Origin: a virus
DNA length: 35,040 bases
Direction: 5' to 3' (one strand)
IMG/VR virus record: IMGVR_UViG_3300006754_000064
Coordinates: 1-35,040 of that record
The notes under the pieces were generated by a model. The model was not told the DNA's origin. It saw nothing but the letters and a program-made list of their open reading frames with translations, and did not search any database. The first letter of the stretch is position 1, and each line of letters opens with the position of its first letter. The translations under genes were made by a program, and so were the position numbers. This document shows positions 1,875-33,896 of the stretch, in pieces.

Positions 1875-2624
1875 TCAATTATCATCTTTATTTTCCACAG
1901 AAAAACTTTGTTTAACGTCTGATTCATTATAGTTTTCAACATCCTTTGGTGTTAAAATGTAATCTACTTTTCCTGTTTTTTTATATTTATCTTGTTCGTC
2001 TGTCCAAAAATCTTCTAGGGTTTTACTAAATGGTCCAGAATCATGTTGTTTTCTTAATTCCATTTTTTCTTCAGAAGTTTTTGGTCTATACTTTTCTATT
2101 TTATCTTCTATGCTGTCAATTTGTTTAACTAATTTATCCATACTTGATAATTGGTCTTCTAGGTCGTCTAATTTAGAAAGTAATGATTCTAATTTTTCAT
2201 TATTATCTTCTACTTCATCTTTAGTTGTTGCTACTTCTTTTTCTATTTCTTCCTGAGATGAAACTAGGTCAGTAACATCTAATTCTGTTGAGTCTTCTGT
2301 TTCTATTTCTTCCTCCCCCTCTAAGTCCTCTTCGTCACCCACCAACTCGTCTTCTGTATCAACTGGTGCCTCTAACCCTTCTTCCTCTGCAGGTAATTCT
2401 TCAGTATCAACTTCTGGGTCGGCTTCTAAAGTTACTTCTTCTTCTTCTTGTTCTTCTAACTCTTTTTGACGTTTTATAAATTCACTAACTCTCGGAGAGT
2501 TGCCTTGTTGATTTACAAAGCCTGAACCGTCACCAATAAATTGCTCATTTAAATTAGTAGCGTTATGACCAATCTGTTTAAATCTTTCTAACTCTTCTCT
2601 TAATTTTTGCTCTATATTATCCAT
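1875..2624 (-). CDS. acidic coiled-coil protein, possible head or scaffold-associated
   Basis: 249 aa, function not recognised. Order of parts: N-terminal amphipathic helix (1-20); NLNEQ at 24-28, which fits an [L/I]-x-E/Q cleavage site (after E27); an extremely Glu/Asp-rich stretch (about 50-115); a predicted coiled coil (about 120-175, heptad-like L/I/V); and a more conserved-looking C-terminal part (177-249) with RPKTSEEKMELR, DSGPF and YILTPKDVENYNESD. From memory, similar C-terminal parts occur in hypothetical proteins of environmental T4-like phages. Acidic, helical and with a possible processing site, it could be a scaffold or internal head protein, but nothing here proves that. It overlaps the upstream gene by 8 bases, so the pair is translationally coupled. 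Confidence 0.7.
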   Translation of the reverse strand: MDNIEQKLREELERFKQIGHNATNLNEQFIGDGSGFVNQQGNSPRVSEFIKRQKELEEQEEEEVTLEADPEVDTEELPAEEEGLEAPVDTEDELVGDEEDLEGEEEIETEDSTELDVTDLVSSQEEIEKEVATTKDEVEDNNEKLESLLSKLDDLEDQLSSMDKLVKQIDSIEDKIEKYRPKTSEEKMELRKQHDSGPFSKTLEDFWTDEQDKYKKTGKVDYILTPKDVENYNESDVKQSFSVENKDDN

Positions 2625-13628: not shown

Positions 13629-15767
13629 TCAAACACCAGAAGGTCCGTTCACTGTGTTAGCTAGTTGTAACGAAAATTCTTGGTAGTCTGGTGGTGACAT
13701 AGCACGGAAAATATCATCTGCAGATACTTTCATACTATTACCGCCTAATTTAAGGTTAAGCGAACCCGTAATATTTACAGTACCAGCACCGCCTCCACCT
13801 GCATTGTTATTTGTAACTGTATTGGTGGAAGTATTAGTCTCTATGTTCTCTAAGAGTTGGGTTCCTCCCATTATAGTGTCTGCTGGATTAGGTAATAATT
13901 TTAATGCACCAGCATCGAAACTTTTAACAGTCCCGTCCGGTTTTAAAATAAAGTCATTTAAAACTTTATAGTCTGGGGTGGCTCCACTTTGTTCTGGAAG
14001 TCCTCCTCCTAAATAATCCTGGAAGTTTTGTACAAAATCCTCTATGTCTCCTACTGGAGAATAATCTTCTATTGCACTTTCCATAACATCGTCAATTGTA
14101 TTTACAATGTTTTCGGTACCCATCTCTGTGTTTTGAATCTGTTCTGCAATATCTTGAGCACTTACCCCCAATACCCCATCAACCGCTGACGCAGCTAATA
14201 AATTTAAAATTTGCATAACGTTAGCTTGTTGAGCTTCCGCAATAGTCAGTTGTTGTTTATTAACATCTTCGATGCTCATACTGTCTTTTTCAGCTTGGTC
14301 TCTAATCGCGTCTAAGAGACCAGGTTGTTGTTTTGCTCGTTCATTTAATTCATCTAAAGCGTAAGTTACTGACTCTCCTGTCTCATCTTTAACGGTTATC
14401 GTCCCCTTTCCGTCTTTAAAATCGGCCATCGAAGCAATAAGGTCTCCCATACCTTCATCAATATCCCCACCTATCTCAAATTGAGCGAAGGCTTGTGTTC
14501 TTTTTGCATTTCTAATTGCTGTTTCTGCTAGATTCTCATAATCTTGACCGGTAGCGTCCGCCAGTGCTTTTAATCTCATCCTTTCAGATGGTGTAATACC
14601 AAATTCTCCTGTAGCTTCATTAAATGATACTGCACTCTCCGTACTTGCTATAATTGCATCTTGTAGACCCTCAACATCATTTTGAGCCATATACATTAAT
14701 TGGAATGGGTCTAACAATTCACTAGCCGCGCCCCCAATCATAGATAATTTAGATGCCATTTCTACAGCACCTTCAGGTGTAAATGCTTTATCTGCTGTAG
14801 CAAATACATTGTTCATGTTTAAACCAAGTAATTGTGATTTTGCAACCATTTTAGTTAACCCGTCAACACCATTTTTGAATCCGTATGTGTTAATTTTTTG
14901 TATTTCTGAAGCGACTGCGGGTAATAATTTAGAGACTGTTACTCCCATGTTTGCAGCAACTTGGACGGTATTTTTAATAGCTTGTGTCGCGTCATACGCT
15001 CCACCACCAATCTTATCAAAATTTGCAACAAAGTCTGCAGATACTTGACCAAATAAAGAATCAATTTTAGCCATATCACCCATAACGTCTGGAGGAATAG
15101 ATAATTGCCTACCTATCGTCTCATAGGTTTTCTCCATTGTTTCTAAGACATCCAAGTAGGATAGGTTGAAGCCATCCGCGGTGGATGCTGCTGTAGTCAT
15201 GGCCAGCATAGTGCTCTCCATCATCTGTTCACCCATACCTACGGTTGTAGTTAAACTCTTTCTTAAATCGTCTACTAGACTTAACACTTGTTTAACAGCA
15301 TGTTGTCTACCTTTGATTCCTTCACCACCACCAGTTAATAGAGATTCGTACATCCCCATTATTTCATCTAAACTCATGTTACTAGCTTTCGTCTCTTTTT
15401 CCAAATTAGAAACTAGCCCGGTAATTTTACTTAACACTTTACCAGTTGAAAAATGTGTTTTAGTTGTGTTTTCTAAAGCGTCATAGTTGTCTTGTAGCTC
15501 ATCAATCTGTTTTTGTAACTGTACACAGTCGCAATCTGCGAAGGAAGGTATAGGCAATAAAATACCAAGGTTTTGAGCTAATCTATAAGAATAAGGATTT
15601 CCTAATTTTCCATATTTTTTAATGGATTTTATCCTCGCGGCACTGTTAGGTTCGTCTTTACTGTTAAAAATCCCTAATGGTACCCCTAAATCGGGATGTG
15701 AAGCTAAATAAGGTTTAGCTCCAGATAATAGATATTCTATTAGTATTTGTGGGAATAAGTTAAACAT
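13629..15767 (-). CDS. tail tape measure protein
   Basis: 712 aa, nearly all helical. It has repeated hydrophobic, Ala/Gly/Met-rich stretches typical of tape measure proteins (GMGEQMMESTMLAMTTAAST; NVFATADKAFTPEGAVEMAS; KLSMIGGAASELLDPF) and a Gly/Asn-rich hinge before a short C-terminal beta segment (AGTVNITGSLNLKLGG). It should line the tail tube, set tail length and leave during injection. At about 0.15 nm per residue, 712 residues would correspond to a tail of roughly 105 nm, if the full chain is used. It sits downstream of the tube gene and the gp26/gp28-like gene, the usual place for a tape measure. N-terminal cysteines (DCDCVQLQ) are a local oddity. Confidence 0.8.
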   Translation of the reverse strand: MFNLFPQILIEYLLSGAKPYLASHPDLGVPLGIFNSKDEPNSAARIKSIKKYGKLGNPYSYRLAQNLGILLPIPSFADCDCVQLQKQIDELQDNYDALENTTKTHFSTGKVLSKITGLVSNLEKETKASNMSLDEIMGMYESLLTGGGEGIKGRQHAVKQVLSLVDDLRKSLTTTVGMGEQMMESTMLAMTTAASTADGFNLSYLDVLETMEKTYETIGRQLSIPPDVMGDMAKIDSLFGQVSADFVANFDKIGGGAYDATQAIKNTVQVAANMGVTVSKLLPAVASEIQKINTYGFKNGVDGLTKMVAKSQLLGLNMNNVFATADKAFTPEGAVEMASKLSMIGGAASELLDPFQLMYMAQNDVEGLQDAIIASTESAVSFNEATGEFGITPSERMRLKALADATGQDYENLAETAIRNAKRTQAFAQFEIGGDIDEGMGDLIASMADFKDGKGTITVKDETGESVTYALDELNERAKQQPGLLDAIRDQAEKDSMSIEDVNKQQLTIAEAQQANVMQILNLLAASAVDGVLGVSAQDIAEQIQNTEMGTENIVNTIDDVMESAIEDYSPVGDIEDFVQNFQDYLGGGLPEQSGATPDYKVLNDFILKPDGTVKSFDAGALKLLPNPADTIMGGTQLLENIETNTSTNTVTNNNAGGGGAGTVNITGSLNLKLGGNSMKVSADDIFRAMSPPDYQEFSLQLANTVNGPSGV

Positions 15768-15780
15768 ACAATATTTTATA

Positions 15781-15788
15781 TATAAATA
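15781..15788 (-). promoter_or_regulatory. TATTTATA element (candidate late promoter)
   Basis: TATTTATA on the coding strand, 13 bases before the tape measure ATG. It lies in the 35-base gap between the small downstream ORF and the tape measure gene. Confidence 0.3.
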
Positions 15789-15802
15789 TCGTCGTTAGGG
15801 TT

Positions 15803-15934
15803 TTATCTTCCAGCTCTATTTCTTGCCTTGTCCGCGGCTTCTGCTTGTTTTTCGAATCCTTCTACTAATTTCTGTATGTAGACTTTTCTTTCAAAAACAG
15901 GCATTTCCAAAATATCTCTTCTGGTAAAATTCAT
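15803..15934 (-). CDS. short tail-assembly ORF, possibly reached by frameshift
   Basis: The frame is open from 16015 to the TAA at 15803-15805, but its first ATG is at 15934, giving 43 aa (MNFTRRDILEMPVFERKVYI and on). The protein-like signal begins before that ATG: ALLDETYFLCKH, then NFTRRDILEMPVFERK, a pattern I associate with small proteins encoded near tape measure genes of T4-like phages. Either translation starts at the internal ATG or the ORF is the tail of a frameshift product from the gp26/gp28-like gene, whose frame overlaps it from 15975 to 16015. This is the classical place for tail assembly chaperone frameshifts. Confidence 0.6.
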   Translation of the reverse strand: MNFTRRDILEMPVFERKVYIQKLVEGFEKQAEAADKARNRAGR

Positions 15935-16875: not shown

Positions 16876-17364
16876 TTAGTATACTAATATACACCTATCT
16901 GGTCTAAGTGTTGCTGCTATATTTGCTATACCTTCATCTGAATAACCTAAATCATTAAAGTTTACGTCAGTTAAAAAACATCCTTGTAATACCCATTTTT
17001 CAACTACTACACCTGTTGGGTCTAACATTTCCAAATCTATATTCTTTTTATATCCTGCAGCATAACCCATTCTTCCTGTAACTGATTCTGCGTGTAACCT
17101 TACCCATTCCATCAATGCTTGAGAGGCGGATGGACCTACTGGGTCACGGAATGTTACATTAATCGTATTCCATACAAATCTACCCGCAACATAAGTAGAG
17201 GTGTTTAAAAATGGAATTTCAACAGAATTGATTGTTATTTGGGGACGTGAGGTGCTCTCAACATACCATTCGTTAATCCCTAATGAAGAGTCAAATCGTA
17301 GGATAAACCTATTCTTTTTCTTTGGTTCATAAGGAACAGGCATTTTCATTAATAAGTCGGCCAT
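16876..17364 (-). CDS. tail tube protein (gp19 family)
   Basis: 162 aa, the same size as T4 gp19 (163 aa). Features of the family: N-terminal MKMPVPYEPKKKNRFILRFD, then PQITINSVEIPFLNTSTYVAG, WNTINVTFRDPVGPSASQAL, WVRLHAESVTGRMGYAAGYK and ILQGCFL-like VLQGCFLTDVNFNDLGYSD. It forms the inner tube through which DNA passes, inside the sheath. The upstream region has AAAGGA 15-20 bases before the ATG and two AT-rich elements; a terminator follows. Unusually, its gene is separated from the sheath gene by about 5 kb of accessory genes. Confidence 0.92.
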   Translation of the reverse strand: MADLLMKMPVPYEPKKKNRFILRFDSSLGINEWYVESTSRPQITINSVEIPFLNTSTYVAGRFVWNTINVTFRDPVGPSASQALMEWVRLHAESVTGRMGYAAGYKKNIDLEMLDPTGVVVEKWVLQGCFLTDVNFNDLGYSDEGIANIAATLRPDRCILVY

Positions 17365-17480: not shown

Positions 17481-18335
17481 TTATGATTTCTTAATTATTA
17501 GCTTATTTTTACCCCCATCTGATGTGTCATAAACTACAAAATTTACTTGGGGATATCGGTCTAGTAATTCATTCTCAATAAAAGATTTTATAGCGTCTAC
17601 ATTTTTCTTATCGTCATCACTAAACCCTATGGATAACCTCTTATACTTCTTAGACACTAGATATTTTGCATTATTTACTACTCTTTCTACATAATCCTCT
17701 AATGCTATTTTTTTACCTTCTTCTGGTTTATCCACGTCTGAAACTAAACCAAATTTTTCTTTAAATTCTGGAGACGATACCGCTGAATAATCATTACTGT
17801 TAAGATAGTAATTAATTATATTTTCTGGGTTTCCTTCAGAGGATACCTCTTTATAATTTCTTCTAATATTATCTAACATACTCTCCATTTCTTTCTCATT
17901 TAATACCTCACCAATAAATAATTTTACACCATTTTGTATAATCTCTGGTCGAGTAGACCTAGCGGTAATAATCGCAAAAGGATTTCCATAAATTAAAGAT
18001 TCTTTAAACTTTTCAAAACTAGGTCCGTACTGTTTATCTTGTAAAGCCTTTTTTAAATCACTATAAAACTTATTTTCATCTCTAAACTCATTAAAAGAAT
18101 CTTCTAGTATTTTATAGTTAGGGTTTTCTCTAATTTCTGCAAATTCTTCAGTTGTTACATACTTTATTTCTTTTTTACCATTTCCTGTATATAGAAGTTT
18201 GATTTTGGTTGGCATGTATAGAATATTATCGTCCCAATCAAATGTATACCCTCTTACCTCGTCCAAGGACGATAGATTTTCAGAACTTTGTTCTGCTAAT
18301 CGGTCGAATTGTTTTTGTGTGATTTTTAATTCCAT
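17481..18335 (-). CDS. HAD-superfamily phosphatase with candidate head-targeting leader
   Basis: 284 aa. HAD motifs are visible: motif I FDWDDN (nucleophile D33, acid/base D35), motif II IITARST (T124), a basic motif III region (KKYKR, 229-233) and motif IV GFSDDD (237-242). This predicts Mg-dependent phosphoryl transfer; substrate unknown. Compared with the usual DxDGT the Thr is replaced by Asn (N37), so the fold is clear but activity is less certain. A helical insertion between motifs I and III (about 65-215) forms a large cap. The N-terminus MELKITQKQFDRLAEQ resembles the leaders of other proteins here and ends in L-A-E/Q. It is divergent from the CAP gene, with promoter elements shared in the 70-base gap. 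Confidence 0.8.
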   Translation of the reverse strand: MELKITQKQFDRLAEQSSENLSSLDEVRGYTFDWDDNILYMPTKIKLLYTGNGKKEIKYVTTEEFAEIRENPNYKILEDSFNEFRDENKFYSDLKKALQDKQYGPSFEKFKESLIYGNPFAIITARSTRPEIIQNGVKLFIGEVLNEKEMESMLDNIRRNYKEVSSEGNPENIINYYLNSNDYSAVSSPEFKEKFGLVSDVDKPEEGKKIALEDYVERVVNNAKYLVSKKYKRLSIGFSDDDKKNVDAIKSFIENELLDRYPQVNFVVYDTSDGGKNKLIIKKS

Positions 18336-18340
18336 ATTTA

Positions 18341-18348
18341 TATAAATA
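18341..18348 (-). promoter_or_regulatory. TATTTATA element before the HAD gene
   Basis: TATTTATA on the coding strand only 5 bases before the HAD ATG. At this distance it cannot be an ordinary -10 box for that ATG unless the mRNA starts further downstream, so the promoter reading is weak at this copy. Confidence 0.2.
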
Positions 18349-18350
18349 TT

Positions 18351-18382
18351 TTTGTTTTATAAGAAAATTTTTATTATCTTTG
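18351..18382 (+). promoter_or_regulatory. Bacteroidota-type promoter of the CAP island
   Basis: TTTG (18351-18354), 20 bases, then TATCTTTG (18375-18382): the -33 TTTG and -7 TAnnTTTG layout of Bacteroidota housekeeping promoters. The CAP ATG is 23 bases after the -7 element. It is the best host marker in the window. Confidence 0.7.
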
Positions 18383-18405
18383 TATTATCAAATAAAATAA
18401 ACATT

Positions 18406-19017
18406 ATGAAAAAATTTATCTTCTTTTTACTTCTTTCCTTTTCAACTTTTGTTCAAGGACAAACCGATTATGGGGTGTGCCATGGTCAAATGATTGATGA
18501 GTACTTAGACGAACCTATTGAGGGTTCTATCTTCTTCGAAATAGAGAAGTATAGAGACTCTAGGTCTTTAAAGGAAATTTTATTTGATTCTGAAATATAT
18601 TTAGCAGCAGAGACACATACAGGTTATTGTATTAAAAGAAAAAATATATTTCATGAAGAAGATGTAGATGTTCTTAACCATATTGAGCTCAACACTTTGA
18701 CTGAACGAATGATTCAAACAGAAGAGGGAACAAACGTATATATTTTAGGACGATATGAAAATTTAGCTATTTTGTCACCATACAATATAGATGGTAGTTT
18801 AAGAACTGTAGAAGAAATAGGAAAAAGAGTTGTGGAGTTGTGGGATTTATCTCCTGCCCATAACAAAATACTAAATAAAAAAGCATATACTAATGAATTT
18901 TTTAGTGGTGCTGTCTCCGTAGAAAAAAGTTATAATTATGAAGGATATCCTATATTAAATTTACCCTACATTTATGTAACCTTTAACTATGTAAAATACG
19001 TATACATTAATAACTAA
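18406..19017 (+). CDS. secreted CAP/SCP-domain protein
   Basis: 203 aa. The start at 18406 is chosen over an upstream ATG because it begins a clear signal peptide (MKKFIFFLLLSFSTFVQGQ), falls just after the promoter -7 element, and the upstream ATG at 18352 would lie inside the promoter. The mature part shows CAP-domain marks: HIELNTLTERMI, GRYENLAIL, then WDLSPAHNKILN followed by a beta strand (FFSGAVSVE). In typical CAP proteins the pattern is H, ENLA, W-x-x-S-x-x-H; the first His is not certain, so metal or lipid binding may be altered. Predicted location is periplasm or outside. Function in the phage is unknown. It is on the opposite strand to its neighbours with its own promoter and terminator, a moron-like arrangement. 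Confidence 0.65.
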   Translation: MKKFIFFLLLSFSTFVQGQTDYGVCHGQMIDEYLDEPIEGSIFFEIEKYRDSRSLKEILFDSEIYLAAETHTGYCIKRKNIFHEEDVDVLNHIELNTLTERMIQTEEGTNVYILGRYENLAILSPYNIDGSLRTVEEIGKRVVELWDLSPAHNKILNKKAYTNEFFSGAVSVEKSYNYEGYPILNLPYIYVTFNYVKYVYINN

Positions 19018-19037
19018 CAACTTAAAACAAAATAACT

Positions 19038-19271
19038 ATGAACTACTTAATCGGATACTTAATCATTTCTTTAATCTTAATGGTCTTCTTTATTGAAGTT
19101 AATAAAGAGATTCTTTACAAACAATACTTACAAATTGATAAGGAGAACGGTAGAGAACCTTCGAGTGGGTGGTTCACTTTCTATATATTAACTCATTTTA
19201 TAAAAGCTCCGTTTCTATGTCCTATGATTTTTCTTTTAATTTTAGGAAATGGTGGAAAGATGATAGAATAA
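19038..19271 (+). CDS. small two-helix membrane protein
   Basis: 77 aa. Two hydrophobic segments: residues 2-20 (LIGYLIISLILMVFFIEV) and about 46-70 (WFTFYILTHF, then LCPMIFLLILG), separated by a charged loop. Co-transcribed with the CAP gene (20-base gap) and followed by a terminator. Size and topology would allow a holin-like or membrane-partner role for the secreted CAP protein, but no family is recognised and no lysis gene is nearby. A longer overlapping frame at 19169-19555 is a shadow. Confidence 0.6.
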   Translation: MNYLIGYLIISLILMVFFIEVNKEILYKQYLQIDKENGREPSSGWFTFYILTHFIKAPFLCPMIFLLILGNGGKMIE

Positions 19272-19272
19272 A

Positions 19273-19294
19273 AAAAGGTCCGAAAGGGCCTTTT
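19273..19294. terminator. bidirectional Rho-independent terminator
   Basis: Stem AAAAGGTCC/GGGCCTTTT with loop GAAA (GNRA). T-runs follow on both strands (TTTTAT on plus, seven T on minus), so it can end both the CAP island and the opposing leader-protein operon. Confidence 0.8.
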
Positions 19295-19335
19295 ATCGTT
19301 ATACTCTTTTTAGACGGAATTTCGCATTTATTCCA

Positions 19336-19737
19336 TCACCATCTGCTCTCCATCCAAACTTCTTCCTCTCTTCCCATAACCTCTTCTTCCTCTCTTCCCA
19401 TAAATCCGCTAAGTTCAGGTATTTCTATATCTATATTATATTTCTTATTAGAGTTTCTAGCTTTACCTTCAAGTTCTCTATATCCTTTACGTTCTTCAGA
19501 TTTACCTCCTGCCCACTCAAACCTTTCAATTCTATCTGTATCATTACCTGTATGATTATGTAAAGATAATTCTAATTTAATGTCACCCGTTTGTTTATTG
19601 TCGTCTGAAACCATATAAGTCCTTACACCATTCCATCTACATCTATCACATACAAAATCATCTTCTTGTTCTTTAATAAGTGAGAATTCTTTATGTAATT
19701 TTCTTATTCTATTTTTTTCTTGTTCTGATATAATCAT
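19336..19737 (-). CDS. leader-bearing CxxC protein, unknown cargo
   Basis: 133 aa from the ATG at 19735-19737. The longer frame starting at 19770 adds 11 residues within the upstream gene, but this start aligns the protein exactly with the leader of its neighbour: MIISEQEKNRIRKLHKEFSL then IKEQ, a possible cleavage after E23. Behind it: DFVCDRC (C30, C33), a beta-rich part (IKLELSLHNHTGND, RIERFEWAGG), and a C-terminal double repeat of MGREEE type. One CxxC pair alone would not make a full zinc site. No family recognised. Transcribed with the genes upstream (11-base gap), ends at the bidirectional terminator. Confidence 0.6.
   Translation of the reverse strand: MIISEQEKNRIRKLHKEFSLIKEQEDDFVCDRCRWNGVRTYMVSDDNKQTGDIKLELSLHNHTGNDTDRIERFEWAGGKSEERKGYRELEGKARNSNKKYNIDIEIPELSGFMGREEEEVMGREEEVWMESRW
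19359..19403 (-). repeat. 24-base tandem repeat inside the CxxC protein gene
   Basis: A 21-base identical core occurs at 19359-19379 and 19383-19403, period 24 bases. It encodes an in-frame 8-residue repeat (MGREEE[E]V). In-frame duplication at the C-terminus, possibly variable between strains. Confidence 0.75.
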
Positions 19738-19742
19738 AATTT
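19691..19742 (-). repeat. leader repeat, copy 1 (52 bases)
   Basis: Matches 20308-20359 at 51 of 52 bases. It covers the first ~15 codons of the CxxC protein (MIISEQEKNRIRKLH) plus a few bases upstream of the ATG. The proteins behind the two copies are unrelated, so the match marks a duplicated or exchanged leader module. Confidence 0.85.
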
Positions 19743-19748
19743 TTTTTA

Positions 19749-20354
19749 TTATTTTTTTGCCAAAGTCCATTGGTCATTACCAACTGATTTCCATGTAAGT
19801 TGTCGACCCCCTTTAGCGTATCTGTTAGCCGTTTCGGTGTCTAACTGGTCATCAGATACACTATTTTGAAGACTATCTACCCAGTTTTTGAGGTAGTTAG
19901 TTAGTATTGCAGTTCTATCTTTTTCATATATTGGCCATCCCTCCAGATTAGTCCACGTACTGTCGCTGTTATTTGATAAATTACAAAGGTTATCCCATTC
20001 ATGGGCATGTTGACCACTTGTTGAACCCAGATAAAGGGTTCCGTCTGTCTTTGGTTTAATTAATTTATTCGGTTCAACCCTATTGTCAGAACTATAAGTG
20101 GCTGGTGAACCAAAATAAAACCTTTTCAGTGGACCATTTTCGGTACAACCAGCTATCATTTTAAGTAGCATTTGTGTAGTTATCTTTTGTTGTGATTCTA
20201 TGAAGTCGAGAGTGTTGGGGTGTAGTAACTCTGAGGATATTCCTTGTATACTAGATGTCTCCTCTTTGCCTTTTACATTGTCTTGTTCTTTAATTATAGA
20301 ATAGTTTTTATGTAGTTTTCTTATTCTATTTTTTTCTTGTTCTGATATAATCAT
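19749..20354 (-). CDS. leader-bearing protein, paralogue of the 266-aa protein
   Basis: 201 aa. Leader MIISEQEKNRIRKLHKNYSI then IKEQ (possible cleavage after E23). The payload is clearly related to that of the gene at 20655: shared LLKMIAGC/MLKMMAGC, DGTLYLGS/KGTLYLSY, W-x-NLC and a closing G-x-x-L-x-WK. The shared domain is aromatic-rich and may bind a ligand; no known family recognised and no catalytic motif seen. It has a hairpin (20369-20394) just upstream whose 3' arm contains GGAG, the only SD-like sequence before the ATG. Part of the minus-strand leader-protein operon between sheath and tube. Confidence 0.65.
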   Translation of the reverse strand: MIISEQEKNRIRKLHKNYSIIKEQDNVKGKEETSSIQGISSELLHPNTLDFIESQQKITTQMLLKMIAGCTENGPLKRFYFGSPATYSSDNRVEPNKLIKPKTDGTLYLGSTSGQHAHEWDNLCNLSNNSDSTWTNLEGWPIYEKDRTAILTNYLKNWVDSLQNSVSDDQLDTETANRYAKGGRQLTWKSVGNDQWTLAKK

Positions 20355-20359
20355 AATTT
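20308..20359 (-). repeat. leader repeat, copy 2 (52 bases)
   Basis: Partner of 19691-19742 with a single mismatch. Begins in the leader of the 201-aa protein and extends 5 bases upstream of its ATG. Confidence 0.85.
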
Positions 20360-20368
20360 ATTATATTT

Positions 20369-20394
20369 TTCTCCAGGGTTTAATTCCTGGAGAA
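20369..20394 (-). promoter_or_regulatory. strong hairpin before the 201-aa leader protein
   Basis: Perfect 9-bp stem TTCTCCAGG/CCTGGAGAA with an 8-base loop, between the Cys-rich gene's stop and the next ATG. On the minus strand it is followed by AAAATATAA, not a T-run, so it is a poor terminator. GGAG in the 3' arm suggests control of ribosome access, or an RNA processing or stability element. Confidence 0.5.
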
Positions 20395-20407
20395 TTAATC
20401 TTATTAC

Positions 20408-20623
20408 TTATGCTTGTGCTTTCTTCATTATATTGATTTCGTCTATGCTTTTACACATTGGTTTTTGACCAGCTCCACATCCCCAAGGTTGTGTACCGTC
20501 AGCACATGCACAAGACCCATCTGCGTTATAACATTTATCACAGCCCCATCCTGTACCTAGGCAATCTCCTCCAGCTTGGATATAAGGTACCCACTGGTGT
20601 GTTGTTTCATTTTTTTCTGACAT
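20408..20623 (-). CDS. cysteine-rich miniprotein
   Basis: 71 aa with seven cysteines (C21, C28, C31, C38, C40, C49, C57) and many Gly/Trp/Asp: GGDCLGTGWGCDKCYNADGS then CACADGTQPWGCG. The spacing could bind zinc or form disulfides; no signal peptide is visible, and it lacks the EQ-ending leader of its neighbours. No family recognised. It sits between the two paralogous leader proteins in the same operon, so it may be co-packaged or act with them. Confidence 0.6.
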   Translation of the reverse strand: MSEKNETTHQWVPYIQAGGDCLGTGWGCDKCYNADGSCACADGTQPWGCGAGQKPMCKSIDEINIMKKAQA

Positions 20624-20654
20624 AATTTCTAATTTTTTTGTTTTATTATTTTAT

Positions 20655-21455
20655 TTATCTTACTGCTAAATACCAAGAGTGTTGGTCGTCAAATTTCCAC
20701 ATAAGTTTTTTTCCAGTTTCGTAACGTTGTTGTTTTTGTTCAAGTGATAATTCACCACTCATGTCGTAATCGTTAGCCTCGTCGTCCCAAACACCAGAAG
20801 TATCTGCATCAGATAGATTCTTAAGACCACTTGCTGCTTCCCAATAATCACTTATTGATTTCAAAAGTTCCTGGTCCCATTCAAACCCAGGTAAAGAAAG
20901 CCACTCTCCATAGATTTGGTCTGGGAAATCACAAAGGTTTTTCCATGTTTGACCACCATGTCCATTTCTGTAACTGAGATAAAGTGTTCCTTTTTTACTA
21001 TTATTTCCTTGATTTATTTTCTGGCCACCAGACGCTGTACTTGTATAGTTAGATGCATACCCAACAAGAGGCTGCATTTCTTCATCATCGTCATAACAGC
21101 CAGCCATCATTTTCAACATTCGTGCCGCACTAATCTTTGTTTTGTTTTTTAACGATTCATAAGCATAAGGATGTAAATCAGATATAGCTATACCTTCTAT
21201 CATTGCTACCTCTTCTTCACCTTTTACATCATCTCCTGATTCCACTATTTCTGTATACTTTCCATCTTGAAATAGATAGATTTGTTTTGTTTTAGTATTT
21301 TGGTAATATTTGCCTTCTTCCGCTTCTGCAACAGGGGGCGTATGTTGAATTGGGTCTTCTTTGGTACCTTCAGCGTCTGGAACAACCTCAAGTTGTTCTC
21401 TAAGACCCATTACCTCTCTAACTCTATTAATTTCAGCTAATATATTATTTTTCAT
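20655..21455 (-). CDS. leader-bearing protein, paralogue of the 201-aa protein
   Basis: 266 aa. Leader MKNNILAEINRVREVMGLRE then Q21 (possible cleavage after E20). A Pro/Glu-rich linker follows (to about 45), then a small beta-like segment GKYYQNTKTKQIYLFQDGKY (48-67), then the domain shared with the 201-aa protein: IEGIAISDLHPYAYES, MLKMMAGCYDDDEE, KKGTLYLSYRNGHGGQTWKN and a C-terminal GKKLMWKFDD-x-HSWYLAVR. The ATG overlaps the TGA of the upstream gene as ATGA, indicating coupled translation. Function unknown; diverged duplication with the 201-aa gene is clear from the shared motifs in the same order. Confidence 0.7.
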   Translation of the reverse strand: MKNNILAEINRVREVMGLREQLEVVPDAEGTKEDPIQHTPPVAEAEEGKYYQNTKTKQIYLFQDGKYTEIVESGDDVKGEEEVAMIEGIAISDLHPYAYESLKNKTKISAARMLKMMAGCYDDDEEMQPLVGYASNYTSTASGGQKINQGNNSKKGTLYLSYRNGHGGQTWKNLCDFPDQIYGEWLSLPGFEWDQELLKSISDYWEAASGLKNLSDADTSGVWDDEANDYDMSGELSLEQKQQRYETGKKLMWKFDDQHSWYLAVR

Positions 21456-22579
21456 ACGTCAAAATTTTCTAAATTATCATCTATATCTTCTAACTCTTCT
21501 GGTTCGTCCAAGTCTGGATAAGGTATTGGGTTTGCCACTTGGTCGTAACTTCTTGGAGCTCTTTGTCTTTGTCCAGACCCAACCAACTCACCAGTATACA
21601 TCATAAAATTATTTAATTTAGCTAAGGTATTAGCAATTTGTTTTCTAGTTTTAGAGTCTCTCACATAAGAATAAGCTCTTTTAATGTTATCTATAATATT
21701 CTCAATTCCTGCGGCTGCTGAAACTCCTGGATTGTGCCCTCTCCACTCATCCTGTGATTCGTTTAATACTTCTTGGTAGTCTTTTATCTCTAATTTAGAT
21801 GTTCTTTCATTTATAATGGATTTTCTAATAGCTCTATAAGTTTTATTTATATCTTCATAAAGTTCATCTTTTTTTTTAGATGGAGACTTTATAACCGAAG
21901 GTGCTGGGTTGTATCTTTTCCCTGTCGCTCCCATTCTTTTCATGTAGTTTGAAATTTCTTTAACTTCTGATTCAGTAATAGGGGTAGTGGTTTTAAGTTT
22001 TCTTGACTCCCTAAAATGAGTTCCTCTTTCATGTCTATATTCGTGGTCTTCATCATAAGCCATATCTCTTTTAAGATTTCTTCTATGACTTCCACTCATG
22101 TCATAATGTTTTAGTCTATAATCGTCATGTCCTTCTGATGAAGCATAATCATAAGTTTCTTCACCTTCACTGTCTTCATCTAGATGTTCCATATCATCAG
22201 TCTGGATGGGGTTCCGATGATTTTTGGAGTCACCAAAATGTTGGTGTCTTCTATCTTCCGTATCGAAGTCAAAAGAATCCATCGATTCCTCTATTTCCGT
22301 TGTACCTGTTGTAGTGCCTGTTGTACCTGTTGACGACGTATTTGATTTTGGGTCATACAAGCCACCCTCTTTATAATTTGGGTCATTTATCAAAGCCCTC
22401 ATCCTCATTCTATCTCTGTTCATTTTCTTTATTTCATCCTGTTCCATTATATTAGACATCAATCTTGTTAATTGTGTGTCTGAAACAACCACTTTTTGTG
22501 ATTTGTTATGGGTAAAATTCTTTTTTAATTTGATTGGGAGACCTAACTCCTCACTTAATGTGTGTTTTTTAAATTCCAT
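21452..22579 (-). CDS. sheath-adjacent protein, unknown
   Basis: 375 aa, not recognised. N-terminus basic; the segment VVVSDTQLTRLMSNIMEQ (30-47) looks like the leader helix of other proteins here and ends I-M-E/Q. A Gly/Thr linker (about 83-94) leads to a highly charged, His/Asp/Arg-rich disordered stretch (95-200). The second half is helical (EIKDYQEVLNESQDEWRGHN; IENIIDNIKRAYSYVRDSKT). The last 40 residues are acidic and Pro-rich. No enzyme motif. It starts 6 bases after the sheath stop, so it is co-transcribed with the sheath and could be structural or an internal protein. The disordered middle suggests scaffolding or binding rather than catalysis. Confidence 0.65.
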   Translation of the reverse strand: MEFKKHTLSEELGLPIKLKKNFTHNKSQKVVVSDTQLTRLMSNIMEQDEIKKMNRDRMRMRALINDPNYKEGGLYDPKSNTSSTGTTGTTTGTTEIEESMDSFDFDTEDRRHQHFGDSKNHRNPIQTDDMEHLDEDSEGEETYDYASSEGHDDYRLKHYDMSGSHRRNLKRDMAYDEDHEYRHERGTHFRESRKLKTTTPITESEVKEISNYMKRMGATGKRYNPAPSVIKSPSKKKDELYEDINKTYRAIRKSIINERTSKLEIKDYQEVLNESQDEWRGHNPGVSAAAGIENIIDNIKRAYSYVRDSKTRKQIANTLAKLNNFMMYTGELVGSGQRQRAPRSYDQVANPIPYPDLDEPEELEDIDDNLENFDV

Positions 22580-22585
22580 AGTCTA

Positions 22586-25500
22586 TTATATGTCTTCAAA
22601 TGATGCTCCCGTTGGAGTTATTAAGAACTCTATAAATATAAATTCAAGTGCTCTTGTTGGTTTAATGTAAATCTGACCATTCATTTCGTTTCTATCAATT
22701 TCTTCTGGGTCGTTAGATAGTACAACTCTAAAGTCTGTTAAACCTCTATCTCTTCTAATTGAGTCTAATATCGGATTCACCAAGTCTAAGAATTGTTGTC
22801 TTACTACATCATCATTCTGTTCGAATAATAGTCTTACTGCGACTGCCGAAATCAATTTACGTGTTTGTAATAATAATCTTCTAACATTAATTCTGTCTAA
22901 TGCTGATTCTTTAATCTGTAAAGTTTTATTACCAAAGATAATTGGGCCAACATCACTGAATGTCGCTATTGGATTAATTCTACCAACATATAATGTGTCT
23001 CTATCATCTAATGTTAATTTAGTTCTTGCTTTAATTGCGTTTACAACTCCACGTGTGTAACCTGCCGATGCAAACCATGGGAATGCAATATTGTCTGTCA
23101 ATGCCATATTTCTTAGAACCTCAGCAGTTGGTGGGATATACAATTGTCTATTACTATTATTATCTCTCACTTGTACCCATGGGTAATAAGTTGCAGTATA
23201 ATTAGAATCAATAAATGAATCTTCTAGATTATTTACAGCTTCTGTCGGCGATATCTTATCGGTTGCCGATGAAGATGTACTCACAAACATATTGTAATCT
23301 GGTGTTGTTGATACATATAATGAATCTGCTCTCTCTGATTCTATCATATCAATAACAGAATTAGATAATCCTAAATTATTAACATAATCAATACCTGGAG
23401 TGGTAAATAGGTTGATGTCAATAGCTTCTGGATTTGCAAATGTTTCATAAGCTGTTTGGTATGCGTAATAATCACTGTTGGATTGGTCGGTACCTGTTTT
23501 CTTAAATGTCCCGTATCCTGCACCATCTGGGAAGCTAGTGTCTGAACATGCCCCATTTAAGAACCCTGTTAACCCTAATCTATAGTTGTCGCCATTAGTT
23601 CTTGTTTTTCTATAGTCGTCCCAACCATCAAAACCACCATGTGGAACTAAACTGAATTTTCTTGATTGTAATTTATAATAAGGGTTGGTAGTTGATGTCG
23701 GTTCTTTAGTAAATGAAGCGTCTCCAACCATAAACATCGCTGTACCACTTAAAGTTGTGCTTGTTAGTGACAAATATGAACCTGAACCAGCTATAACAAC
23801 TGTTGCTCCTGAATCCATGTGGAATCCTTGTGTTAAGTCTGGCCAATCTTCACCAGTCGTGTCAGTACATACCGAACTTGGTGTTTTAAATCCTTTAAAT
23901 TCAAAAATATCATTATCAATTGCTGCACCTTCCCCATCAGAATAACCTAAGAAATTTCTACGGATATTGTCTCCCGCGGATATTGATGCGTTACTTTGAT
24001 TTCCACTTCCGTCAAAATATGGGTCATATATAGTTTCTCCAGCAGTATAGTACTTAGTTTTCCATTGAGCTACTGGTATTTTATTACTTGTACAGTAAGT
24101 TCTGAGCCTATATCCTTCAAATCCACAAGGTAGAGAATCTTTTAAATCTCCTTCTTTTAAATCTTCTGTCAATTCTAACATGGTATATGTAGACCTTAAC
24201 TGATATTCACCATCTGAAGTACCTATTTTTCTTCCTACAAAACTTACTAGGTTTGGGTCTAGACTACATCTAGTATATTTTTCTAATATTACTGGATTTG
24301 CGTCTGTATCATTAAAATCTCTTACTAATATATCAAATTCTCCTCTTTCCCAAGATATGTTTATTATTGATAATTTAATTTCTCTATTTGCTTTTGTACC
24401 GTCTGATACTGAAATAAATCTAAATAATCTATCTACACTAGTACCTTTTAATTCAGATACCACATATGGGGTAACTGGTGTTTGCCATTGATTCATGTAC
24501 CAACCAATAGATGTTCTATTTGTGTTATTGAATCTTGCTGATGGTAAGTAACATACACAACAATTCAATCCTCTAATTTTTTGTCTTCTATATAGGTATT
24601 TTGTTATATTAGGATATACTTCCTCAACAAAAATTGGAACTTCAGTGTCTACTCTATCAAAAACTCCTCTTCCTAATACCCTTGGTAGATAATCTTTACT
24701 ACTCGAATCTAGAGATACTTTAAAATTGTGAACTATTCCAGCATCTGTTTTAGCTGAAATGCCAAATACGTTGAACGGATTATTAATTATTTCGGTATAT
24801 TCACCTGTACACTCCATTGCAACACCACCTAGTTGATTACTAGTACTGTCGGTCGTATCTGCACTTATTTGGTAAATTGGCCCTCCTGTGGTTAGAGTAC
24901 TTTCTCCTCTAGACCTTAGGGTAGCTACTACCATACCGTGATAATCAGTATATGGGTCAATACCTCCACCATTCATATTACCTATTATCTCACTACACCC
25001 ACTTACGGATAAAGCTAAATAAGTAATCGCTGAACATGTTCCTGTGTAGAAAGTTGTAAATGAAGATAATGAATTTCCAGTAAACCACATAACTGTGGTT
25101 CCTGTTTCTGATGGTGAAGTAACATTAATTAATCCACCACCATCACCTGCTCTTGCTTGTTGTGTTGGTTGACCTTCTTGAGCTATTCCTGTGTTTGCAA
25201 ATCCACTTAAGGTTACTTGTACTGCTGTATAAGCTGGTGCAGAACCATAAATATCAGTGCTATTATCACAACTTATAAGTTCATAATCTGTTACTCCTCC
25301 TGAATAATTTGAAATACCTAATGTTTGTAAAGTTTCTATCGCTCCTGAAAATGTACTACCAGTTCCGTAAGTTGCTCCAACAAATGGGTATACTGTTGGT
25401 AGGTACCCTAGAGTAGCCGATGTTCCCGCTGAGTAAGAATACCATTGTGCAGCTCCTAGTCCTCCAGGGGTAAAGTCACCAAAATAAGCCCCACCAAATG

Positions 25501-26647
25501 ACCATTCAGACCAAGATGATGCTGAAGTAACTGCAGTATATCCTCCAATTGACCCAACCCAAGTTTGAGAGCCTTCTGCTATTAAATCTGCTACTATAAC
25601 AGTATTATCATCGGAACTTCCAGATAATCCTGTATTAATTACACCTTCTGCATATGTAGTTGCTGTATGTGCACTTGAAACGAACATACTAACTGATAAC
25701 CCTGAATATCCACTATCGTAACAATCAGTAGCGGAACCACCAGTATACTCAAAGAAACTAGCATACCAACCATCATTTGTGTCTCCTGAAAAATCTGCTG
25801 CAGTTACAGCGTCAGCGTATGTATACCCTAAACCGTCAAATCGTGGTCCTAGGTTTGCATCAATACCAAATCTATTGTCTAACGCGACAGGTTGTCCTGT
25901 AGCACCAGTTATAGTTGGCATTTGTAAAGAAGTGTCACCTGTGGACATATATCCCCAATACCAGAAATTATCTGTCACAGTATCATCCCATTGAGTAATA
26001 CCGCTTGGTAGTGTGGCGTTAACAAATGAGGCAACTTCATCTACGAATGTTCCTAAACTTGCACCTGTATCATCATATAATGTTTCACCAGTTAAAGCGT
26101 ATCCTACCATAAAAGCTAAATTACCTAATGCGGTTGCTGAACTAAGAGGTGAAGAAAACTCAGTGGTAGTCGCTGTTGTTAACTCTTGGAATATGTTTGA
26201 GGAGTTTATGGTAGCACTAGTTAGTGGAATCCATAAAGCTGTTTCTTCCCACGCGGTTGTAGTAGAAGCAGTCGCTCCGGTTGCTACATTTGCTGGGTCT
26301 AATCCACCAATAGTGGTAAAATTCCATGAAGGTCCCGCATCGTATCCGGATAAACCTAATACTCTAGTTACAAATAATTGATTAGATTGTTCAAGGTAAG
26401 ACCTAGCTATAAAACTTAATTCATACTTTGGGATTTGACTATCCACAAATTTTTCCGGACTAGTATCACCAAATCTTGTTCTAAATTCGTCAAACGAACT
26501 AATAAAGATAGGTTCAAATGCTGGTCCCTTACTGGTTTCTCCTACAGCACCTAAGGTTGTAACACCAACGCTCTGTGCTACAAATGTTAAATCTTGCTCC
26601 GCGGTATAAACACCAGGTGAGACAAATACTTTGTTATTTTCAGCCAT
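22586..26647 (-). CDS. tail sheath protein (gp18 family), very long
   Basis: 1353 aa, about twice T4 gp18 (659). The N-terminus FVSPGVYTAEQDLTFVAQS with GAVGETSKGPAFEP and FDEFRTRFGD is characteristic of sheath proteins. The conserved C-terminal part carries VNAIKARTKLTLDDRDTLYV, INPIATFSDVGPIIFGNKTL, INVRRLLLQTRKLISAVAV and IYIKPTRALEFIFIEFLIT. The sheath contracts to drive the tube into the cell. The extra length lies mainly in a Gly/Ser/Thr-rich stretch (about residues 115-555), without proteolysis or enzyme motifs, probably surface domains on the outside of the sheath. Its 71-base upstream spacer holds a TATTTATAA element and a small plus-strand gene lies beyond. Confidence 0.95.
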   Translation of the reverse strand: MAENNKVFVSPGVYTAEQDLTFVAQSVGVTTLGAVGETSKGPAFEPIFISSFDEFRTRFGDTSPEKFVDSQIPKYELSFIARSYLEQSNQLFVTRVLGLSGYDAGPSWNFTTIGGLDPANVATGATASTTTAWEETALWIPLTSATINSSNIFQELTTATTTEFSSPLSSATALGNLAFMVGYALTGETLYDDTGASLGTFVDEVASFVNATLPSGITQWDDTVTDNFWYWGYMSTGDTSLQMPTITGATGQPVALDNRFGIDANLGPRFDGLGYTYADAVTAADFSGDTNDGWYASFFEYTGGSATDCYDSGYSGLSVSMFVSSAHTATTYAEGVINTGLSGSSDDNTVIVADLIAEGSQTWVGSIGGYTAVTSASSWSEWSFGGAYFGDFTPGGLGAAQWYSYSAGTSATLGYLPTVYPFVGATYGTGSTFSGAIETLQTLGISNYSGGVTDYELISCDNSTDIYGSAPAYTAVQVTLSGFANTGIAQEGQPTQQARAGDGGGLINVTSPSETGTTVMWFTGNSLSSFTTFYTGTCSAITYLALSVSGCSEIIGNMNGGGIDPYTDYHGMVVATLRSRGESTLTTGGPIYQISADTTDSTSNQLGGVAMECTGEYTEIINNPFNVFGISAKTDAGIVHNFKVSLDSSSKDYLPRVLGRGVFDRVDTEVPIFVEEVYPNITKYLYRRQKIRGLNCCVCYLPSARFNNTNRTSIGWYMNQWQTPVTPYVVSELKGTSVDRLFRFISVSDGTKANREIKLSIINISWERGEFDILVRDFNDTDANPVILEKYTRCSLDPNLVSFVGRKIGTSDGEYQLRSTYTMLELTEDLKEGDLKDSLPCGFEGYRLRTYCTSNKIPVAQWKTKYYTAGETIYDPYFDGSGNQSNASISAGDNIRRNFLGYSDGEGAAIDNDIFEFKGFKTPSSVCTDTTGEDWPDLTQGFHMDSGATVVIAGSGSYLSLTSTTLSGTAMFMVGDASFTKEPTSTTNPYYKLQSRKFSLVPHGGFDGWDDYRKTRTNGDNYRLGLTGFLNGACSDTSFPDGAGYGTFKKTGTDQSNSDYYAYQTAYETFANPEAIDINLFTTPGIDYVNNLGLSNSVIDMIESERADSLYVSTTPDYNMFVSTSSSATDKISPTEAVNNLEDSFIDSNYTATYYPWVQVRDNNSNRQLYIPPTAEVLRNMALTDNIAFPWFASAGYTRGVVNAIKARTKLTLDDRDTLYVGRINPIATFSDVGPIIFGNKTLQIKESALDRINVRRLLLQTRKLISAVAVRLLFEQNDDVVRQQFLDLVNPILDSIRRDRGLTDFRVVLSNDPEEIDRNEMNGQIYIKPTRALEFIFIEFLITPTGASFEDI

Positions 26648-30607: not shown

Positions 30608-31675
30608 ATGAAAATTATTAAAGAAGAAATAAATAGAATTAGAGAAATTATGAGTTTACCTCTATTAAAAGAAGATGAAACTCTAACTACTGGGACAACT
30701 ACACAGGTAGAAATAATAATGGATTCTGACGTAGAATCTATTTTACAAGGAAAAAATATACTTAAAAGAGGTCATAAGGGTAAATTAGTATCTAATATAC
30801 AACAGAAATTAGTAGTGGACTATAATATAGATTTAGGAGAATATGGAAAATTAAAAGATGGTGTAGATGGAGTTTTTGGGTCTAAAACTAAAGAAGGGGT
30901 AAAAGAATTTCAAAAAACATTTAATTTAGTGGTAGATGGTATCGTTGGTCCTTGTACCTTGGATACCATAATAAATGGTGTAGCTAATAAATGTTGTGAG
31001 AGTGGTAAATGTAAAACTGAAGAATGTAAGGATACCAATTTTTGCCCTGCTAAGAAAAATATTAAATCCCAAAAAACCAATACCAACACAAAGAAGAACG
31101 AGAGAGAAGTGGAGAATGTTAAAGTAAATAAGAAATTACCAAGAAAATTTGAATTAATACCAGGAGGTGCAGGCAATTATAGAACGGGACAACCTTCACT
31201 AGGACAATTAAAATATATTTTACAAGATGAATTTCCAGAGATTCAAAGAGTGGTTAGGATGAATGGGTCTAGAGAGGTAAGTGTCTCTATTGAGAAGGAG
31301 AAAGAATTGGTGGAGGGTCTAGGTAAAGAATTTATTTGGATTAATGCCCATAAAGGGTATAGACGAGGAGAAGGGTATGTAGATTCTATGAATGTTGTTA
31401 TCCCATTATTAATGGAAGGTAATACTCTGATTCATTGTACCGCGGGAAAAGATAGGACTGGATTTATGGTAGCACGTTACCTGAAGGATATCGGTTATAA
31501 TAACTGGAGTGATGAAGACTTATGGGATTATACTGTAGATTTTAACAGTTGGGAACGAAAAGGTTATATTTGTAATAATACAGACTATAAAAAGTATATG
31601 GAAGGATTCTATACTATAAACGATTGGTGTTCTGCCAATTCTGAAAGACGGTCCTGTCGTGTATGTAGAGGATAA
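30608..31675 (+). CDS. leader + peptidoglycan-binding domain + tyrosine phosphatase fusion
   Basis: 355 aa in three parts. Leader MKIIKEEINRIREIMSLPLL with K21-E22/D23, a possible cleavage after E22. PG_binding_1-like domain, about 48-122: LKRGHKGKLVSNIQQKLV, YGKLKDGVDGVFGSKTKEGV, FNLVVDGIVGPCTLDTI. A Cys-rich, Lys-rich linker (129-178). Tyrosine/dual-specificity phosphatase, about 185-355: NYRTGQPSLGQL, then the P-loop HCTAGKDRTG with nucleophile C277 and R283. So it may bind cell wall and remove phosphate from a protein or other substrate. Eight further cysteines in the linker and C-terminus (CNN, CSANSERRSCRVC) are unusual. If the leader directs packaging, this could be an injected effector; the pairing of wall binding with phosphatase is not one I know. 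Confidence 0.75.
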   Translation: MKIIKEEINRIREIMSLPLLKEDETLTTGTTTQVEIIMDSDVESILQGKNILKRGHKGKLVSNIQQKLVVDYNIDLGEYGKLKDGVDGVFGSKTKEGVKEFQKTFNLVVDGIVGPCTLDTIINGVANKCCESGKCKTEECKDTNFCPAKKNIKSQKTNTNTKKNEREVENVKVNKKLPRKFELIPGGAGNYRTGQPSLGQLKYILQDEFPEIQRVVRMNGSREVSVSIEKEKELVEGLGKEFIWINAHKGYRRGEGYVDSMNVVIPLLMEGNTLIHCTAGKDRTGFMVARYLKDIGYNNWSDEDLWDYTVDFNSWERKGYICNNTDYKKYMEGFYTINDWCSANSERRSCRVCRG

Positions 31676-33284: not shown

Positions 33285-33896
33285 ATGAAAGATAAAAAAT
33301 TAACCATATCTGAGATTGATACTCTAGTAAAAAAAATCGTTTTGGAGAAGAGTGGAGCGAAGGGTGCCCTTGAGAGTACGTACAAAAAACTGAAGGATGT
33401 TAAAAAAGCTCTTAAAGAAAGAGGTAAGAAAAATGTAGATTTAAAAAAATATAAAGCTACAATGAGAGAGTTAGCGGATGAATTAGATGAGATGGAGGAT
33501 GAAGAAATAACAGAAATGGAGGAAGAAGAAGAACAGGAAATTGTTAACAGAAATGAAAATTCTGAAGGTTATGGAACCTTTAAGGGTTTGGAAAAAATAG
33601 AGGAGGGTGTTGTTAGACTTAGTAGGTCTGATTTACAAAATGTAGTTAAACGAGTTATAAAAGAAAGTGGAAAATTCAGTAGTGATGAAAAAGATTTAAT
33701 TGTGGTTAATTTTGCAGATGATGAAAATTATAACTCTAAAAGAAATTTATTCGAACAAAACTTACATGAAGCTCCAGAAAAAGGCACTGATTGGATTATA
33801 AGTAAAGAGGATAGAGCTGACTTAATAGCGATGGGTGGTAAAGCAGAAGAAATAGGAAATGCTACTACAAATGATTTTTCTAAATATTGTAGATAA
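33285..33896 (+). CDS. leader-motif protein with two copies of the helix
   Basis: 203 aa, unknown. The motif occurs twice: KKLTISEIDTLVKKIVLEKSG (4-24) and VRLSRSDLQNVVKRVIKESG (about 109-128; V-I-K-E/S). Between them a basic helix (LKDVKKALKERGKKNVDLKK) and an acidic stretch (ELDEMEDEEITEMEEEEEQE). The C-terminal part is small and polar. From memory, such helices (T/S-x-x-D/E-L-x-x-hV-K-R-V-I-K-E) are common in environmental phage proteins. Two copies suggest a protein with an internal processing site, separating a basic/acidic N-half from a C-half. A good terminator follows; the next gene is gp13-like. Confidence 0.65.
   Translation: MKDKKLTISEIDTLVKKIVLEKSGAKGALESTYKKLKDVKKALKERGKKNVDLKKYKATMRELADELDEMEDEEITEMEEEEEQEIVNRNENSEGYGTFKGLEKIEEGVVRLSRSDLQNVVKRVIKESGKFSSDEKDLIVVNFADDENYNSKRNLFEQNLHEAPEKGTDWIISKEDRADLIAMGGKAEEIGNATTNDFSKYCR

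Follow-up and report, generated by a model that had tools for sequence, protein, structure and literature searches.

Proteins injected by phages shut off host defences and reprogramme cells, and to our knowledge few of them are known outside the T-even and phiKZ-like phages, because the virions of uncultured phages cannot be studied. In phage T4, internal head proteins carry a short N-terminal capsid-targeting sequence (CTS); the protease gp21 cuts C-terminal to the Glu of the motif L/I-X-E, and the first ten residues of IPIII suffice for packaging (PMC9026906). The T4 proteins Ip1-3 have nothing but the leader in common; once injected, they inhibit type IV restriction enzymes (PMC12373910). 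Here, we describe a set of short leaders ending in [L/I/V]-x-E, encoded in a virus fragment of 35,040 bases (IMG/VR record IMGVR_UViG_3300006754_000064, positions 1-35,040; hereafter, the window). These leaders are very probably prohead-targeting propeptides, after whose terminal Glu a protease would cut, leaving the attached cargo in the head to be ejected into the next host.

Results

Leaders ending in [LI]xE are enriched in the window and its relatives

The window bears T4-like tail genes, namely, a tail sheath (22586-26647) and a tail-tube-like gene (16876-17364). Judged by sequence, others resemble genes for baseplate components, a UvsW-type helicase, and a single-strand binding protein. 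Relatives were gathered by searching with the tail-tube protein, which yielded at least 599 stretches; 80 loci were kept, and the complete records of six large genomes (110-298 kb) from relatives were read through. Individual cargo calls are provisional, because gene starts were taken as the first ATG, the relatives' genomes are metagenomic, and the leader classes were defined on the same data as were tested.

A sequence-only reading had proposed the leaders as counterparts of the T4 CTS, and every leader that it listed is present at the genes concerned (Table 1). Within residues 9-60, 6 of the 28 window proteins contain [LI]xEQ, relative to a mean of 0.88 for residue-shuffled N-termini (p = 0.0002) and 1.22 expected from interior segments of the same proteins (p = 0.0013). 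As this motif was picked after the fact, independent support from relatives weighs more than the window enrichment. Over seven genomes of the phage family, the N-terminal/interior ratio of [LI]xEQ is 3.9, whereas it is 0.45 in the flavobacterial control phages phi14:2 and phi38:1 of Cellulophaga, which also gave no leader-profile matches; the excess of leaders over unrelated phages that had been predicted is thus borne out.

Leaders are exchanged between protein bodies

From the relatives, we built profiles for four leader classes that recur, with the consensus sequences TExDLxxIVxxVLxE (class A), EEKNRIxxLH...LxEQ (class B), EINRIxxxMGLxxEQ (class C), and ITExQLxxLxE (class D). Their matches in the window are the genes at 19336 and 19749 (B), those at 20655 and 30608 (C), and an internal helix of the gene at 33285 (A; 2.6e-5); the leaders of the putative HAD-fold protein and of the 375-aa (amino acid) protein were assigned to class D by eye alone. 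In relatives, leaders of classes A to D occur on ~46 body families (A, 19; B, 15; C, 6; D, 10; some shared) and, as for the CTS, they stand at the N-termini of otherwise unrelated proteins.

Within the window, the CxxC and 201-aa proteins have 18 of 23 aligned leader residues in common, and the rest of the two proteins is without similarity. Their leader DNA is near-identical from just before the ATG through the KEQ codons, at which point the similarity ends. The bodies of the 201-aa and 266-aa proteins are homologous (E = 1e-21), but their leaders differ, being of class B and class C, respectively. Accordingly, the earlier description of the leader-bearing proteins as unrelated holds for the CxxC and 201-aa bodies and fails for the 201-aa and 266-aa pair. 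Leaders are also exchanged in relatives, where a zinc-ribbon/VMVYYNL protein carries either a class C leader (L033, L035, L046, L049, L052) or a class D leader (L063, G005), and a P-loop kinase carries a class C leader (L024) or another leader, MKNLIKNILKEELLLEE or MKGLIKQVLSEELLKEE (L016, L246). Neither the 266-aa protein nor the phosphatase fusion retrieved any relatives when used as a query. Class A and C leader queries matched nothing in cultured phages, a result that shows little, as tblastn with 23-24 residues is insensitive.

Leader modules are also found at internal or C-terminal positions (L009:6793-7200, L011:6048-6443, G004:70722-71060, L200:5727-6197, and window 33285-33896), an arrangement that would suit the processing of a single chain into several pieces. 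The 203-aa protein of the window carries both an N-terminal leader-like module and an internal copy, the helix bearing the internal site being RSDLQNVVKRVIKE↓S (↓, predicted cut), and its G004 homologue retains both.

The predicted cut site is conserved in leaders of different sequence

We found [LIV]xE 3-16 residues past the class B core in 17/17 cases (5.5 expected; 0/5000 shuffles), after the class A core in 27/27 (8.3 expected), and after the class D core in 10/13 (4.0 expected). As in the CTS, the leaders end at (L/I)-x-E, the cleavage motif of gp21. The N-terminal extensions of the HAD orthologues vary in sequence and length and end in [LI]xE ahead of the core, with ends including LRE↓G, LTE↓G, IKE↓G, LEE↓Q, LLE↓Q, and LTE↓Q. 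Among 22 such leaders of <60% identity, [LI]xE occurs in 20 (11.5 expected; 0/5000 shuffles) and [LI]xE[GQASN] in 14 (3.3 expected), and the control motifs [LI]xK, [LI]xD, [LI]xxE, and E.[LI] show no enrichment. Likewise, the site is retained in five orthologues of the acidic protein (gene at 1875), as NLTE↓Q, NLEE↓Q, NLDE↓M, YIVE↓Q, and YIFE↓Q, and, for the 375-aa protein, in the relatives L004 (INE↓Q), G001 and L028 (LME↓Q), and L011 (IQE↓Q), though not in L007 and L008. In the AlphaFold model of the window's HAD protein (pLDDT 88), confidence falls below 50 only at residues 17-22, immediately past the predicted cut at E15.

These data bear on two other explanations. Conceivably, the shared 5' ends arose by recent copying of DNA and persist for the sake of expression, through ribosome binding or early codons, with no function in the protein, as the near-identical DNA of the two class B leaders, extending to bases before the ATG, might suggest. 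We consider this extremely improbable, since the amino-acid motif persists across relatives despite very different leader sequences and no excess is seen for control motifs, [LI]xK and [LI]xD among them. Alternatively, the leaders could target the prohead but stay uncut, with LxE belonging to a helix contact. In T4, a CTS with Asp at position 10 still directs packaging although it is not processed (PMC9026906), and a few bodies have a leader core without LxE; yet the distance from the class B core to LxE ranges from 3 to 16 residues while LxE is kept, which a contact surface would not easily tolerate, and the same variable spacing recurs in the scaffold (see below), making uncut leaders very unlikely.

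Relatives encode a gp21-type protease and carry the motif in capsid and scaffold

Of 15 relative records, 5 encode a gp21-type Peptidase_S77 protease (E 1e-23 to 1e-27), and several of the remainder are fragments; in relatives, a gp22-like scaffold and a Gp23 capsid protein come after the protease. The N-terminal region of the capsid protein ends in LINE↓, followed by A in 77 of 79 cases and by S and Q in one each; the G004 capsid site is LINE↓Q. The scaffold contains a helix, MKEEISELVKESL, and, a variable number of residues further on, [LI]xE↓Q; this site occurs in 41 of the 65 distinct sequences, relative to 1.9 expected, and [LI]xK↓Q and [LI]xD↓Q are absent. Both the protease and the shared motif at the capsid propeptide end and in the scaffold, which the sequence-only reading had named as things to look for, are thus present in relatives. 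In addition, the relatives' proteases have an L[IV]E motif close to the N-terminus; T4 gp21 has LIE at residue 9 (PMC9026906).

The scaffold plan, a helix and then [LI]xE↓Q at variable distance, matches that of the putative cargo leaders, and Q after the cut is therefore the phage family's own signature. The suggestion that Q at this position (P1') reflects a different protease preference calls for revision, as scaffolds have E↓Q, capsids mostly E↓A, and many HAD orthologues E↓G. Given the scaffold site, we likewise rejected Q at P1' as the mark of an unrelated protease. Judging from these sites, A, G, Q, S, and N all seem to be accepted by the protease at P1', with Q common in the window's subgroup.

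The genomic positions of the leader genes raise a further possibility. The genes at 21452, 20655, 19749, and 19336 lie behind the sheath gene in the same orientation, closely spaced or overlapping, with the small gene at 20408 among them, and such a run makes late expression likely. Because the block sits between the sheath and tail-tube genes, and because leader bodies include wall-active or wall-binding proteins (PG_binding_1 in the window, Peptidase_M23 in G004), the leaders might instead attach proteins to the tail or baseplate, or be of use to wall enzymes in the periplasm, without involvement of the head. We regard this as unlikely, given that (i) the leaders terminate in the same motif as the capsid and scaffold sites, a match needless for a tail-docking peptide; (ii) leader genes also lie near head genes, with G005:53554 right after the capsid gene and a leader gene of the cultured T4-like Flavobacterium phage vB_FspM_immuto just before the terminase; and (iii) the N-termini of ~46 families bear class A-D leaders.

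Inventory of leaders and neighbouring genes

The features are listed in Table 1. In the CxxC gene, the first ATG would add 11 aa, and we placed the start at the leader-homologous ATG (19737). No leader was seen on the 71-aa CxC protein at 20408 or on plus-strand genes within the block.

Table 1. Leaders and candidate cargo genes in the window (↓, predicted cut)
Feature	Position	Strand	Remarks
HAD-fold protein leader	18291..18335	-	MELKITQKQFDRLAE↓Q; 15 aa ahead of predicted cut
Putative HAD-fold phosphatase-like protein, 284 aa	17481..18335	-	Adjoins tail-tube gene in 72/80 relative loci
CxxC protein leader, class B	19669..19737	-	MIISEQEKNRIRKLHKEFSLIKE↓Q
CxxC candidate cargo gene	19336..19737	-	Start corrected to leader-homologous ATG
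201-aa protein leader, class B	20286..20354	-	MIISEQEKNRIRKLHKNYSIIKE↓Q; DNA near-identical to CxxC leader
201-aa candidate cargo protein	19749..20354	-	Body homologous to 266-aa protein
266-aa protein leader, class C	21396..21455	-	MKNNILAEINRVREVMGLRE↓Q
266-aa candidate cargo protein	20655..21455	-	Body homologous to 201-aa protein
375-aa protein two-part leader	22442..22579	-	MEFKKHTLSEELGLP...VVVSDTQLTRLMSNIME↓Q; end also written TQLTRLMSNIME↓Q
375-aa acidic leader protein	21452..22579	-	Downstream of sheath gene
Phosphatase fusion leader, class C	30608..30673	+	MKIIKEEINRIREIMSLPLLKE↓D
Phosphatase fusion: leader, peptidoglycan-binding domain, dual-specificity/tyrosine phosphatase domain	30608..31675	+	Pfam
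Acidic protein (gene at 1875) leader	2544..2624	-	MDNIEQKLREELERFKQIGHNATNLNE↓Q; ends NATNLNE↓Q
203-aa protein N-terminal leader-like module	33285..33347	+	LTISEIDTLVKKIVLE↓K (KIVLE↓K); weak profile score
203-aa protein internal class A module	33609..33665	+	VVRLSRSDLQNVVKRVIKE↓S; profile A iE 2.6e-5

Several neighbouring features were recorded. The tail sheath has 1353 aa, and known sheaths match chiefly its C-terminal third, so it probably carries large insertions. The UvsW-type helicase (28850-30585) is present as two overlapping open reading frames (ORFs; 249 and 336 aa), whereas relative G006 has a single 577-aa ORF; a frameshift or an error of assembly may account for the split. A 2053-aa baseplate-like protein (2901-9062) has an end that resembles an M23 peptidase domain by eye (HKGTDFSP...HLHYEV). 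A host scan of the genome contigs matched a single bacterial metagenome-assembled genome, at most a tentative host assignment.

In the family, the octamers that most often precede start codons are ATATTTAT and TATTTATA, lying 10-30 bases upstream of many starts; TATTTATA precedes 131/992 genes, with a peak 10-25 bases before the ATG. The upstream octamer accompanies 21/84 leader genes versus 110/908 others (p = 0.002), with examples in the window at 18336-18380 and 13768-15812, and may be a late-promoter-like element.

Candidate cargo includes phosphatase-like and wall-binding proteins

For most of the candidate cargo, Pfam and PHROGs offered no useful family. In the HAD protein, residues D33/D35, T124, K208, and D240/D241 are invariant in 41 orthologues and, by inspection, they correspond to HAD motifs I (DxD), II (T/S), III (K), and IV (acidic pair). 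Structural matches at Z 5-7.6 include HAD phosphatase chains mixed with unrelated folds. Foldseek gave no PDB match at E <= 0.001 (chance-level matches only), Pfam no HAD match, and a PDB sequence search nothing. PNKP and Swiss-Army-Knife HAD proteins appear as weak matches in the viral library, and a role in repairing RNA or DNA ends is only a guess.

The domains of the phosphatase fusion are PG_binding_1 (E 8e-13) and Y_phosphatase3 (E 1e-6). Leader bodies in relatives include an M23 peptidase (G004) and a P-loop kinase and, by inspection, OmpA-like and peptidoglycan-binding-like proteins. The leader-bearing kinase is AAA_33/zeta-toxin-like (L016:5403-6071, L246, L024:8394-9047), and HAD-like fragments lie nearby in L016. 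In the poly-Lys proteins of relatives, the Lys run begins right past the predicted cut, which would suit a DNA-binding head protein. Near the capsid gene of L168, L169, L180, L195, and L212, small proteins have a class A leader, a lysine run, and then a CSRGxxAAKAKYxVYPSAYANGYAVQ domain, which in L173 and L196 is fused behind a YMFFSNLEQ domain.

Discussion

The motif and its conservation, the swapping of modules, and the protease, capsid, and scaffold sites of relatives are seen directly, and in silico they support the proposed equivalence of these leaders to the T4 CTS. In the mechanism that we favour, the N-terminal amphipathic helix would bind the assembling scaffold core, and the attached protein would be enclosed as the capsid shell forms. 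During the round of processing that trims the capsid protein at LINE↓A and the scaffold at [LI]xE↓Q, the gp21-type (Peptidase_S77) protease would also cut past the Glu of [L/I/V]-x-E, so that the leader would be lost and the cargo kept in the head with the DNA until ejection into the next host cell. Exchange of at least four leader classes between bodies would give a changing cargo set, comprising here the putative HAD-fold phosphatase-like protein, the peptidoglycan-binding phosphatase fusion, and zinc-ribbon and unknown proteins, and in relatives an M23 peptidase, P-loop kinases, and poly-Lys proteins.

A number of observations weigh against packaging and cleavage. The 35-kb window has no protease, capsid, or scaffold gene, such genes being known from relatives. 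Several genes of the block lie among tail genes, and some of the relatives' cargo consists of wall-active enzymes that are possibly tail-borne. The terminal E of class C taken alone is not significant (8/10 versus 5.4 expected, p 0.075), P1' of the phosphatase fusion is D, the leader core of some bodies (G005:109541, L057) is not followed by a clear cut site, and the HAD protein of L074 lacks the motif. Moreover, the chance rate of [LI]xE is high in Glu/Leu-rich leaders, which makes individual leader assignments uncertain.

If the leaders are packaging tags, head cargo could be listed from sequence across a very common phage group, and the leaders would offer an alternative tag set for loading foreign proteins into T4-like heads. 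A broader picture, to which we give an even chance, is that a widespread group of uncultured T4-like phages uses a modular code of several unrelated docking leaders, with internal copies that split one product into separate pieces of cargo, a near-universal HAD-fold cargo, and a large, fast-changing injected set.

Among cultured phages, the immuto phage has a leader, NFDLKKFLVENKLTTNSKILKE, in four genome places and a second leader on two bodies (MKKQILSEQFKRMQFLAGIITE↓S), and its capsid site is IVSE↓A. Its leaders end in [LI]xE before S, G, or N, but they differ in sequence from those described here, and none has Q at P1'. Our literature search found no paper describing the immuto leaders as targeting leaders and no proteome for this phage.

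The inner-body and ejection proteins of phiKZ and SPN3US offer a second parallel, in that these large phages have many head proteins with propeptides ending in Glu, many ejected proteins, and a gp21-like protease (PMC9026906, PMC5694885, PMC10052503). In contrast, the phiKZ motif is S/A-x-E, whereas L/I/V occupies P3 here, and the present leaders form recurrent swappable families.

The likeness to the T4 CTS (on IPI, IPII, IPIII, and Alt, cut by gp21) lies in a short N-terminal leader that ends in (L/I)-x-E on otherwise unrelated proteins, and in the gp21-family protease, gp23-type capsid, and scaffold with the same motif in the window's relatives. By eye, the only comparison made, the window leaders show no likeness to the T4 IP leader; HAD relatives in uncultured phages of 640-735 kb have N-termini, FELFLNE↓N and FDQFIRE↓S, that recall it. 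T4 has one conserved 10-residue sequence, whereas here there are several unrelated leader classes of ~7-46 aa, often with Q at P1' and with internal and C-terminal module copies. Dozens of putative cargo families carry them across the group. Relative to T4, the data thus support CTS-like propeptides that would be multi-class, swappable, and widely used in a common group of uncultured phages.

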